Source of the DNA: Candidatus Fermentibacterota bacterium
GTDB lineage: Bacteria; JAFGKV01
Direction of reading: 5' to 3'
Length of the DNA: 5,816 nucleotides
Assembly (NCBI GenBank): GCA_030620115.1
Contig: JAUXFG010000205.1
Span: 1-5,816, forward strand
How positions within the stretch are numbered: position 1 is the stretch's first letter; the number at the start of each line of letters is the position of its first letter. This document shows, piece after piece, positions 1 through 5,576 of the stretch. The position numbers and the translations under genes are program-made. The notes beneath the pieces were generated by a model, which was given only the letters and a program-made list of their open reading frames with translations, did not search any database and was not told the origin of the DNA.

Positions 1-153
1 ATAATAGATCAATCTGTCGATATTATACCTTTTCGTGAATCCTTCAATCATGTGATGCTTGTGTTCGTATACACGTCTCCTCAAATCATTCGTCACCCCT
101 ATATATAGAGTCCTGGACCTGTTGGTCATAACATATACATAGTACTGCTTCAT
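1..153 (-). CDS. GIY-YIG nuclease domain protein, partial (C-terminus outside window)
   Basis: This gene is read leftward and runs off the left edge, so only about 51 codons are present. The product begins MKQYYVYVMTNRSRTLYIGV, which contains the GIY-like strand (YVYV) and the YIG motif of small stand-alone GIY-YIG proteins (UPF0213/YhbQ-like). These motifs are followed by the conserved Arg-x-x-x-His signature (RVYEH). It is almost identical to the complete gene at 4348-4629: within the shared coding part the differences are Tyr for Cys before the Glu-His pair and Arg for Gly after NID, plus two silent changes. An in-frame ATG nine bases upstream (160-162) would add MGA. I prefer the inner ATG because family members usually start at MKxYYVY and GGGGGCA lies just upstream of it. 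Truncation is by the window edge, so there is no evidence of a pseudogene. The family fold is a metal-dependent endonuclease; the substrate is unknown. Confidence 0.85.
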   Translation of the reverse strand, partial: MKQYYVYVMTNRSRTLYIGVTNDLRRRVYEHKHHMIEGFTKRYNIDRLIYY

Positions 154-207
154 TGCCCCCATTCCCCCACCCAGATTCTTCGGTCGCTCCGCTTCCTCAG
201 AATGACA
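151..207. repeat. 57-bp leader + REP-like module, copy 1
   Basis: The module consists of the GIY-YIG start codon (CAT on the plus strand), a C-rich tract that reads as a purine-rich ribosome-binding leader on the minus strand, and a 35-bp REP-like unit (173-207, orientation A) starting AGATTCTTCGG and ending CTCAGAATGACA. The same 57 bp recur without gaps at 4253-4309 and 4627-4683. The REP-like part is bounded by ATTCT and AGAAT, so it is itself a short imperfect palindrome. Confidence 0.85.
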
Positions 208-273
208 TACGACGATGGGCCCTTGTGCGCAATACAACTGTCATTCTGAGCGAATGCAAGGAGCGAAGAATCT
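173..273. repeat. REPIN-like inverted pair of REP units (A, 31-nt loop, B)
   Basis: Unit A (173-207) and unit B (239-273) are inverted copies of each other, separated by 31 nt. The outer 10 bp (AGATTCTTCG against CGAAGAATCT) and the inner 12 bp (CTCAGAATGACA against TGTCATTCTGAG) are perfectly complementary, while the middle of the arms is diverged. The whole would fold as a hairpin with an internal bulge. A degenerate pair with exactly the same loop length lies at 4125-4210. Confidence 0.8.
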
Positions 274-414: not shown

Positions 415-449
415 AGATTCTTCGGTCGCTCCGCTTCCTCAGAATGACA
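415..449. repeat. REP-like unit, orientation A, solitary
   Basis: The 35-bp sequence from AGATTCTTCGG to CAGAATGACA is identical to unit A at 173-207. The preceding C-rich stretch is only loosely like the 57-bp module and no GIY-YIG start codon is present, so this copy is a solo repeat. It lies about 47 bp past the end of the glycosyltransferase gene and would be in its 3' untranslated region if transcription continues. Confidence 0.85.
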
Positions 450-3390: not shown

Positions 3391-3481
3391 CTTCTCAATA
3401 AGTCCGTGCGATATCGGAAAAATCCCCCTTAATCCCCCTTTGCGAAAGGGAGAAGGGCGGATGCCCGGACCTATTGAGAAG
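3391..3481. repeat. 91-bp palindromic element (MITE-like), copy 1
   Basis: The ends are 16-bp inverted repeats with one mismatch: CTTCTCAATAAGTCCG at 3391-3406 and CGGACCTATTGAGAAG at 3466-3481. Inside lie a tandem AATCCCCCTT (two units, 3421-3440) and a short hairpin CCCTTT-GCG-AAAGGG. A related element of 92 bp is at 5485-5576, with the same core and its own inverted ends. The right arm contains the TAG stop codon of the Nudix gene. The minus-strand sequence after the hairpin ends in GGATTTTT, so weak termination of the Nudix transcript is possible but unproven. No transposase is encoded inside. Confidence 0.75.
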
Positions 3482-4103
3482 TCGCCCTCAATCCCTCTAT
3501 CACCAGTTGTGACCATGTTTCGAAAGAGTCGGGTTGCTCGTCGAGGCGACGAAATAGCTCACTTCGTGGAATCAAGGCACCTTGGAGCTGATCGCTCTCC
3601 CTGATCCGGACATCACTACCTTCCTCGATGCGTGCTTCAAACACCACCCCAAAATGCACGGATCCAACCGGATTGCTCTCATCATTCACAAAACCCATGG
3701 GCTTCAGCGACAGGAGATCGGGCAATATGAGCTCTTCTTCGAGTTCCCTCCGCGCAGCTCGCAACAGACGCTCGGATGACGAACGTTCCCCATCTACAGG
3801 ATTGATATGGCCGCCCACGCCCACGGAAAGCAGATGATGAAGTCTCTTCTCGCCACCGCCCTTCAGTCTCTGGAGGAGAAAAACCCGATCCCCCGCAGTC
3901 ACCACACAGTATGGAATGATCTGCTTTAATCTGGGGTCTGTTTCCACCTCATCCCTCGGCCCGAAAAAACCTTGCCTTTCCGCTGTCTCCAACCAGCGAG
4001 CGCCGTGTTCGCCTGACACATGGAGGGAGATCATACCCTGCGGCGTGAAATCCGGAAACAGGATCCCCCTTTGTACTACGAATACATATTCCCTATCGTC
4101 CAT
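3471..4103 (-). CDS. Nudix hydrolase, predicted phosphoesterase (COG4112-like)
   Basis: The product has 210 residues. The Nudix box is visible as Gly105-x5-Glu111-x7-Arg119-Glu120-Leu121-x-Glu123-Glu124-x-Ile126-Leu127. It is complete except that the usual late glycine is Ile126. The metal-binding REXXEE core is intact, so hydrolysis of a nucleoside diphosphate-X or similar phosphate ester is expected. The stretch LLSVGVGGHINPVD just before the box, and VFLLQRLKGGGEKRLH (74-89), recall the MutT-family phosphoesterases grouped as COG4112; the substrate is unknown. The ATG at 4101-4103 is the first possible in-frame start (a TGA lies six bases upstream), yet the GAGGA preceding it abuts the ATG with no spacing, so initiation may be weak or unusual. 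The last residues (ATSQ) and the TAG come from the inverted arm of the palindromic element at 3391-3481. The upstream side abuts a degenerate REP-like pair. Confidence 0.9.
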   Translation of the reverse strand: MDDREYVFVVQRGILFPDFTPQGMISLHVSGEHGARWLETAERQGFFGPRDEVETDPRLKQIIPYCVVTAGDRVFLLQRLKGGGEKRLHHLLSVGVGGHINPVDGERSSSERLLRAARRELEEELILPDLLSLKPMGFVNDESNPVGSVHFGVVFEARIEEGSDVRIRESDQLQGALIPRSELFRRLDEQPDSFETWSQLVIEGLRATSQ

Positions 4104-4124: not shown

Positions 4125-4210
4125 GGGCTCCCTTGGAATGACACGTGACGATGCATCCTTCTGCATATCCCCACTGTCATTCTGAGCGACATCCAGGGAG
4201 CGAAGAATCT
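4125..4210. repeat. Degenerate REPIN-like pair (partial A, 31-nt loop, B)
   Basis: Only the right half of unit A is recognisable (GGCTCCCTTGGAATGACA, ending 4143). Unit B is complete at 4175-4210 (TGTCATTCTGAGCGAC to CGAAGAATCT). The loop between them is 31 nt, the same as at 173-273, and the loops share GACGATG near the left end. The pair lies directly upstream of the Nudix start codon and so forms most of that gene's leader and any promoter region. Confidence 0.65.
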
Positions 4211-4252: not shown

Positions 4253-4309
4253 CATTTCCCCCATTCCCCCACCCAGATTCTTCGGTTGCTCCGCTCCCTC
4301 AGAATGACA
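4253..4309. repeat. 57-bp leader + REP-like module, copy 2 (no gene body)
   Basis: This copy matches 4627-4683 in 53 of 57 positions by eye and includes the leader and the GIY-YIG ATG (4253-4255 on the minus strand). What follows the ATG is not GIY-YIG sequence; the frame closes after a dozen codons. It is an orphan 5' module, in the same orientation as the module at 4627-4683, so the two form direct repeats around the complete nuclease gene. Confidence 0.8.
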
Positions 4310-4313
4310 GGTG

Positions 4314-4344
4314 ACTCTGAACGATGAACGGAAGCGAAGAATCT
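4314..4344. repeat. REP-like unit B, diverged, abutting GIY-YIG stop codon
   Basis: The segment from ACTCTGAACG to GCGAAGAATCT is a shortened unit B, inverted relative to unit A at 4275-4309 and only 4 nt from it. The outer 10 bp (AGATTCTTCG and CGAAGAATCT) pair perfectly. On the nuclease mRNA this hairpin would begin three bases after the stop codon, where it could protect or end the transcript, although no U-run follows. Confidence 0.65.
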
Positions 4345-4347
4345 CTT

Positions 4348-4629
4348 CTACCACTCCTCGCTCAGGTCTCTCCATTCCGGACTCATTGATTCAACAAGAG
4401 ATATCTTCCTCTTGCGCAGCCATCCCTTGATCTGCTTCTCTCGAGCAATCGCCGCCATGATGTCTCCACTCACCTCATAATAGATCAATCCGTCGATATT
4501 ATACCTTTTCGTGAATCCTTCAATCATGTGATGCTTGTGTTCGCATACGCGTCTTCTCAAATCATTCGTCACCCCTATATATAGAGTCCTGGACCTGTTG
4601 GTCATAACATATACATAGTACTGCTTCAT
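4348..4629 (-). CDS. GIY-YIG nuclease domain protein (UPF0213/YhbQ-like), complete
   Basis: The 93-residue product is a single GIY-YIG domain. It has YVYVM (5-9) as the GIY strand, LYIGVT (16-21) as the YIG motif, Arg27-x-x-x-His31 matching the catalytic Arg and His spacing of the fold, and Glu64 in AREKQIKGW as the likely metal ligand. It ends SPEWRDLSEEW, where relatives usually have NPEWRDL. Key residues are intact, so an active metal-dependent endonuclease is plausible; the DNA target is unknown. The start at 4627-4629 is preferred because homologues begin MKQYYVY and GGGGGAA lies immediately upstream. An ATG at 4636-4638 would add MGE. REP-like units lie three bases after the stop codon and 19 bases before the start, and the gene is bounded by 57-bp direct repeats. 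A near-identical second gene is cut by the left window edge (1-153). Confidence 0.9.
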   Translation of the reverse strand: MKQYYVYVMTNRSRTLYIGVTNDLRRRVCEHKHHMIEGFTKRYNIDGLIYYEVSGDIMAAIAREKQIKGWLRKRKISLVESMSPEWRDLSEEW

Positions 4630-4700
4630 TTCCCCCATTTCCCCACCCAGATTCTTCGGTCGCTCTGCTGCCTCAGAATGACACGTGACGATGGGCCCTT
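4477..4700. repeat. Long direct repeat, copy 2
   Basis: This is the partner of 1-224, with 11 mismatches and no gaps. The match covers the first part of the complete GIY-YIG gene, its leader, the REP-like unit at 4649-4683 and the first 17 bases beyond. It ends at GGGCCCTT. In copy 1 an intact unit B follows; here only a possible decayed remnant (TTCTGAG ... GCGAAG, about 4699-4720) can be made out. Confidence 0.9.
4627..4683. repeat. 57-bp leader + REP-like module, copy 3
   Basis: The module runs from the GIY-YIG start codon through the C-rich leader to the REP-like unit A at 4649-4683. It is the functional upstream region of the complete nuclease gene and is homologous without gaps to 151-207 and 4253-4309. 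Confidence 0.85.
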
Positions 4701-4725
4701 CTGAGGCCTAGGAAATGCGAAGTTG

Positions 4726-5484: not shown

Positions 5485-5576
5485 CGTCTCAATAAACGCT
5501 GGCGCCATGGATAAATCCCCCTCAATCCCCCTTTGCAAAAGGGGGAGGGGGTCAGATGCCGTCATTTATTGCGACG
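5485..5576. repeat. 92-bp palindromic element (MITE-like), copy 2
   Basis: The core AATCCCCCTCAATCCCCC, then TTTGCAAAAGGGGGA and a downstream GATGCC, is shared with the element at 3391-3481 in the same order and spacing. Its ends pair with each other: CGTCTCAATAAACGC at the left against a complementary stretch ending TTATTGCGACG at the right (15 of 19 positions). The central hairpin is stronger than in copy 1 (CCCCCTTT/AAAGGGGG). It encodes no protein. It starts 62 bp upstream of the phosphatase gene, much as copy 1 starts 71 bp upstream of sppA. Confidence 0.7.

Follow-up and report, generated by a model that had tools for sequence, protein, structure and literature searches.

Introduction

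Many bacteria contain CGTC-type REPs, with copy numbers that reach into the hundreds. These repeats were defined by Di Nocera et al. in 2013 as units with a CGTC, TGTC or CCTC tag, an AT-initial stem of 8 to 9 bp, a loop of 4 to 5 nt and a short unpaired tail; they form dimers and heterodimers, occur in several phyla, fall into four families and are apparently without a dedicated transposase (PMC3733652). A function of REPs as transcription or RNA elements has been proposed (PMC3733652). In the REPtron (Nunvar 2010, PMC2817692; Bertels and Rainey 2011, PMC3116915), a REP is combined with a RAYT tyrosine transposase. The system described in this study is similar to the REPtron in that one gene is flanked by REPs, many REP dimers are found elsewhere and the type of repeat is matched to the type of enzyme. 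The differences are the enzyme, which in the REPtron is an HUH tyrosine transposase unrelated to GIY-YIG, and the tag, which is GTC here instead of GTAG; in the window's genome we found no Y1_Tnp/HUH gene flanked by the units.

The free-standing GIY-YIG homing endonucleases of the phage T4 type, as presented in the sections of PMC2988022 used here, are comparable in being encoded by small selfish nuclease genes which are present or absent at a given site. The protein of this study differs from them in lacking an extra DNA-binding domain (it has only 96 aa), and whereas homing endonucleases target a single-copy gene, the site here is a repeat and there are often several gene copies per genome. 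A literature search, from which preprints and most subscription journals were outside, found nothing that joined GIY-YIG genes with REPs, and the passages searched of the 2006 GIY-YIG survey (PMC1564403) contained nothing on REPs. The parts of the system were known already; their pairing, the arrangement as a bracketed cassette and the footprints described below are probably new.

A GIY-YIG gene bracketed by inverted REP units

The window, which is the whole 5,816-nucleotide stretch of DNA that was analyzed, is one contig of a Candidatus Fermentibacterota assembly of 4.10 Mb in 296 contigs. Its genes, all on the minus strand, encode a glycosyltransferase, an S49 peptidase, a NUDIX protein, a complete GIY-YIG nuclease of 96 aa (4348..4638, stop codon at 4348-4350) and a histidine phosphatase. 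An earlier note, made from the sequence alone, had described the GIY-YIG gene as enclosed by REP-like units, and this was borne out. A type A unit is located upstream of the gene on the minus strand (4649..4683), and a degenerate type B unit is located on the plus strand just past the stop codon (4311..4344). The GTC tags of both face away from the gene, and the two units form an inverted pair that brackets it. The 57-bp module that the note had placed on each side in direct orientation was recovered as 4253-4315 and 4627-4689, with 92% identity over 63 nt. A tail which is G-rich on the minus strand separates the upstream A unit from the start codon (4627..4648), and a second copy of it (4253..4274, minus strand) is joined to the next A unit of the downstream array (4275..4309, minus strand). 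This A unit and the degenerate B unit make up the inverted A/B pair that had also been claimed directly past the stop codon. The array continues with a 36-nt B unit on the plus strand (4175..4210) and a decayed A remnant at about 4127-4143.

A second GIY-YIG copy (1..153, minus strand) comprises the 5' half only, is truncated at the left contig edge and is about 95% identical to 4477-4629. As the note had stated, it has the same upstream module and an adjoining pair: over 227 nt the region is 95% identical to 4477-4703, including both the gene and the upstream REP, and an A unit at 173..207 (minus strand) forms an A/B dimer with a B unit at 239..273 (plus strand). A single A unit is found at 415..449 (minus strand). 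The contig begins within the truncated copy, as expected where an assembly runs into repeated sequence.

The REP family of the window's genome

A genome-wide search with a pattern built from the two conserved ends of the unit gave 470 matches (243 + 227, at most 3 mismatches), compared to 0 for the reversed pattern, and the REP-like repeats in this genome are therefore not due to chance. Types A and B represent variants of a single unit. In the window and 18 stretches of its own genome, picked because they contained repeats or transposase genes, every one of the 16 close dimers whose tags point inward was an A/B heterodimer, with a spacer of 30 to 35 nt. The whole A/B dimer, represented by the 101-nt dimer containing 173-207 and 239-273, folded with much greater stability than shuffled sequence (z = -5.4), whereas a single unit from the same genome showed no such advantage; single-unit hairpin stability was consequently rejected as evidence, and covariation was used in its place. 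No Rfam match was found.

In the same set of stretches, a G-rich tail (GGGTGGGGGAATGGGGG type) followed 24 of 30 A units and a C/T-rich tail followed most B units, which makes the whole dimer a larger imperfect palindrome. It is conceivable that the strands of tailed dimers form G-quadruplexes.

With CGTC REPs these units share the tag, the high copy number (470), the dimers and the heterodimers. They differ in having a 5-bp outer stem followed by tandem G-A mismatches rather than a stem of 8 to 9 bp, and their close dimers carry inward tags, unlike the published ones. Since an AT stem of 8 to 9 bp with a loop of 4 to 5 nt was absent from the window units, we term them CGTC-like and file them in none of the four published families. 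That structure was found in most of the CC-class units beside the Pseudomonadota genes described below; the Pseudomonadota repeats (CGTCATTCCCGCG..CGCGGGAATCC, CGTCATCCTCGGGCTTGACCCGAGGATCC) match the published structure, and Sinorhizobium, Novosphingobium, Azospirillum and Neisseria are within the groups or species named in PMC3733652.

The GIY-YIG subfamily

The PF01541 domain of the window protein scored 48.8 bits against a cut-off of 22.6, placing the protein in the GIY-YIG superfamily. Its AlphaFold prediction (pLDDT 94) consists of one domain, a bare GIY-YIG domain. Among 42 members of the subfamily, Y10, Y20, G22, R30, H34 and E67 were invariant and N86 nearly invariant, and the catalytic residues of the superfamily (two Tyr, Arg and Glu) are conserved. 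The nearest solved relatives by both sequence and fold were UPF0213 and Slx1 (PDB 1zg2, 1ywl and 6seh), yet the fold alignments, at 18 to 26% identity, correspond to a remote relation. Unlike the window subfamily, the remaining small GIY-YIG genes in these genomes, UPF0213-like ones included, were not linked to REPs. The window protein had no match in NCBIfam, and 14 of the 42 members weakly matched the NCBIfam model for group I intron endonucleases, while some members matched a GIY-YIG homing endonuclease phrog. Genomes often had several copies of the subfamily gene, and these were frequently broken or duplicated.

A phage origin was considered and rejected. Merely 20 relatives of the subfamily were found among 2.9 million viral contigs, with REPs adjoining 9 of the 19 examined, so that viruses are at most a minor vehicle.

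Linkage of the subfamily to tagged hairpins across phyla

The detector used for tagged hairpins required no more than a GTCAT start, a complementary arm of 5 bp and a C following the arm. A first set of 80 loci from named genomes, retrieved by searching with the window protein, spanned Latescibacterota, Zixibacteria, Ignavibacteria, Chloroflexota, Cyanobacteria, Planctomycetota, Cloacimonadota, Acidobacteriota, Bacillota, Pseudomonadota and others. A tagged hairpin was present within 300 bp of the gene at 76 of these loci, and on both sides at 52. The same was true of 26 of the 29 best Pseudomonadota loci from a sample of 249 genomes, many of the hairpins having the published CGTC-type structure, and of 16 of 21 further paralogues in the first-set genomes, 2 of which duplicate first-set loci. 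In total, such a hairpin lay within this distance at 116 of 128 independent subfamily loci, from more than 15 phyla. Control genes, which were other GIY-YIG genes from these genomes, gave 2 of 20 (p = 2e-13 versus the subfamily), a rate that is if anything too high because one control gene near a REP (L194) itself looks like a decayed subfamily member. The enrichment near GIY-YIG genes for which the earlier note had suggested looking was thus found, and was strong, for this subfamily. The linkage counts are low rather than high, as the detector misses CCTC-tagged and AC-stem units that can be seen next to plasmid genes.

Hairpin density was 10.6 per kb at 0 to 50 bp from the gene, compared to 0.12 to 0.14 per kb at 0.5 to 3 kb and 0.026 per kb in the Markov-shuffled control; within 100 bp of the gene it was 67 times that further out (rate ratio). 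The REPs were closely spaced to the start and stop codons, and the tag of the upstream REP pointed outward in 45 of 59 cases. The subfamily genes sit between genes, beside REPs, and a long non-repetitive site in a conserved gene, as expected for a homing endonuclease, was not seen.

On p1 of Planktothrix agardhii (L262), a REP-GIY-YIG cassette lies in a defense region between MmeI and DISARM drmA genes.

Repeat type and nuclease clade

At 353 GTCAT...ATCY sites within 200 bp of the genes, the three variable stem bases were complementary in 266, whereas 56 were expected when the 3' sides were dealt out anew. Detector hits were excluded as covariation since the detector demands pairing. Pairing of the stem is thereby strongly supported without having been assumed. 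The stem classes present were ATTCT, ATGCT, ATCCT, ATTCC, ATCCC and ATTGC, and the tag was TGTC or CGTC in nearly all hits and CCTC in Sinorhizobium and Rhizobium tumorigenes.

On a nuclease tree of 141 rows and 94 columns, which had few well-supported branches, the stem class (CT, CC or GC) required 18 changes, compared to a mean of 41 when shuffled (0 of 200 shuffles as low), and host phylum required 40. The stem class follows the nuclease clade more than the host, in agreement with the covariation of repeat and nuclease that the earlier note had proposed to look for. Each of four genomes (G010, G011, G012 and G016) contained one nuclease with CT-stem REPs and another, with N[ST]V[LI]Y or NKVLY, with GC-stem REPs, and in two more (G035 and G037) NGTLY nucleases with CC-stem REPs were found beside other pairs. 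These different pairs inside single genomes remove the host as a confounder. Looser cases also occurred: in G009, a pair of nucleases whose loops are of one kind had CT-stem and CC-stem REPs, respectively. The residues between the two catalytic tyrosines vary with stem class, a supporting observation in which kinship was ignored.

In Rhizobium tumorigenes and Sinorhizobium (L255 and L321), CCTC-tagged REP dimers with a structured spacer adjoin the GIY-YIG genes, and the adjoining sequence matches dozens of places per record. These dimers presumably resemble RIME elements.

Occupied and empty sites

Presence and absence of the gene at one site was observed in Azospirillum, Sphingobium and Sinorhizobium. 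On plasmid AZO_p3 of Azospirillum lipoferum (L264), a block of about 0.5 kb consisting of REP, REP, gene, REP and REP splits sufB from sufC, and in five relatives the sufB-sufC gap is a short spacer with no gene and no REP. In the Sphingobium replicons TomMM7A and TomTYG46 there is a REP-gene-REP arrangement between fnrL and a response regulator. At the same site, TomTYG64 has a single REP with two tags, one at each end, and no other unit of this kind in 50 kb, and TomTYG72 and TomTYG65 have neither gene nor REP. In Sinorhizobium Ak57, the gene and a decayed tandem copy lie between gltA and lpxB; K101 has at this site one double-tagged REP, the only REP found by the scan in 50 kb, which runs on into the same right flank as in Ak57.

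In two related replicon pairs, therefore, a double-tagged REP is located exactly where the other allele has the gene and two REPs. Such a REP is the product expected if the left and right REPs were joined through their shared stem arm. The footprints indicate an exchange inside the REPs in these two cases and would fit either insertion or deletion; a deletion through slippage between the stem arms common to both REPs would leave an identical product. The REP tagged at both ends in the gene-less allele is also a candidate cleavage target.

A different GIY-YIG gene, with REPs of different sequence, was found between the sufB and sufC genes of Shinella sp. PSBB067 (L270). The same gap is hence occupied by two different GIY-YIG/REP cassettes in the distant genera Shinella and Azospirillum.

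Distribution of genes and units among genomes

The subfamily was carried by 37 of 251 Chloroflexota genomes and by 8 of the 13 that had at least 10 CT-stem units (odds ratio 11.5, p = 8e-5; rank test p = 1e-7). In Pseudomonadota, the association with one CC-type pattern was modest (odds ratio 3.7, p = 4e-5 for any copy; odds ratio 2.7, p = 0.01 for at least 10 copies). The tests in both phyla ignore host kinship and cover one stem class each.

The earlier note had held that its proposal would suffer if units were equally common in relatives without the gene, and on this point the outcome was divided. Within the phylum, the relatives compared were two genomes of the same family and another genus, and by whole-genome pattern counts neither had the subfamily gene or a REP unit. 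A de novo hairpin scan of 165 kb of these two relatives gave 11 hairpins of mixed types with no dominant family; hairpin densities of these and the own-genome stretches form a biased comparison because the latter were picked for repeats, and the whole-genome counts are the fair one. However, many units without an intact gene were found elsewhere: 448 in G408, 166 in G353 and 35 in G454, 179 in G081 and 136 in G209, both Pseudomonadota without a subfamily match, and 760 in G133, which had a gene fragment only. The GIY-YIG genes of G408 and G353, both Chloroflexota, were UvrC-like or unrelated ones only. The REPs can thus outlast the gene or have another source there, and these genomes need explanation, be it gene loss, incomplete assembly or another source of REPs.

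Proposed mechanism and alternative explanations

The small GIY-YIG subfamily looks like the missing enzyme partner of CGTC-type REPs, and the locus is best read as a nuclease cassette associated with REPs, through which it is gained and lost. We consider it fairly probable that the gene and its bracketing REPs are a small mobile cassette without a transposase, that the subfamily is the dedicated partner of CGTC-type REPs, and that the nuclease cuts REPs while host repair spreads both. The cassette would be laid out as a REP, the GIY-YIG gene and an inverted REP, with the tags outward. Slx1 is a nuclease acting on branched DNA, and in the most likely mechanism the subfamily nuclease would recognize the tagged hairpin or a cruciform and cut in it as a structure-selective, Slx1-like enzyme. 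Since GIY-YIG chemistry is hydrolytic, spreading would need host repair, which may take another REP-bearing copy as template and in this way copy the cassette into REPs and spread REP dimers as non-autonomous passengers; covalent strand transfer would not be needed. The linkage, the bracketing, the covariation of stem bases, the tie of stem class to nuclease clade and the presence or absence of the gene at sites with exchange points in the REPs are observations; that the nuclease both cuts the REPs and spreads them is an inference. More tentatively, CGTC REPs and the subfamily might together constitute a class of transposase-free mobile elements in which the nuclease cuts the hairpin and host repair does the copying, with hydrolytic cutting as the sole driver of a genome-wide repeat family in many phyla, an extension that we regard as possible and somewhat doubtful.

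The nuclease gene could instead parasitize REPs, as a free-standing homing endonuclease gene whose targets are pre-existing CGTC REPs and which spreads itself but not the REPs; these would arise otherwise. Among the rivals, a homing endonuclease merely landing in REPs explains best why some genomes have hundreds of REPs yet lack an intact gene; the double-tagged REP at a gene-less site could then be the uncut target, and the matches to the group I intron endonuclease model and the homing endonuclease phrog also favor this account. It is nevertheless unlikely in our estimation. The two same-family genomes lack the REPs as well as the gene, the gene-less sites of Azospirillum, TomTYG72 and TomTYG65 contain no REP, and with the repeat class tracking the nuclease clade inside one genome, a matching REP would always have to pre-exist. 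REP arrays are known targets of insertion sequences, according to the part of PMC1525189 used here, and the broken and duplicated gene copies would also fit a passive neighbor, that is, a dispensable small gene that settles in recombination hot spots without acting on REPs. This is improbable given that the same gene family was picked in more than 15 phyla, that other small GIY-YIG genes of the same genomes were rarely near REPs (2 of 20) and that stem class tracks nuclease clade.

Two further accounts leave the nuclease without a part in moving the repeats, and both appear very improbable. If the REPs were terminator or RNA-stability elements of the gene, their close spacing to the start and stop codons and the role proposed for REPs (PMC3733652) would be accounted for; the gene and its REPs are, however, present or absent as a block, and hundreds of REPs are away from any such gene. 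In the other account, a RAYT or other transposase would spread the REPs and the GIY-YIG gene would only be carried along. The earlier note had weighed this against its own proposal, and RAYT-type (Y1_Tnp) genes are indeed present, four of them in the window's genome. RAYT was rejected as the mover on linkage, as none of the four has a REP unit within 3.5 kb. Being as frequent in the two unit-less relatives (5 and 3 genes), these genes do not explain the repeats, and no transposase linked to CGTC repeats was found by Di Nocera et al. (PMC3733652).

With the nuclease as the likely partner, the question of the missing CGTC-REP transposase becomes one of simple tests, because the enzyme can be named, cloned and assayed. 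If the nuclease does move REPs, then REPs arose with two unrelated enzymes, a tyrosine transposase and a GIY-YIG nuclease, and the many genes that are annotated merely as "GIY-YIG nuclease family protein" would gain a function. The residues between the catalytic tyrosines would in that case be the place to look for specificity.

Other repeats in the window

The right end of the contig (5738-5816) carries tandem AGCGTTCAGCGTTCAG repeats together with GAGGGAATGGGGGAAGAG, and the contig probably breaks in a repeat there. Another dispersed repeat, AATCCCCCTTAATCCCCCTTTGC.AAAGGG, which bears no relation to the REP units, was found at 3414-3482 and 5507-5550 and also in L004. It is fairly rare, its core being matched just twice in 226 kb of sampled sequence from the same genome. 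In L004 the repeat also reads as PLNPPLRKGE, the start of a UvrC frame.
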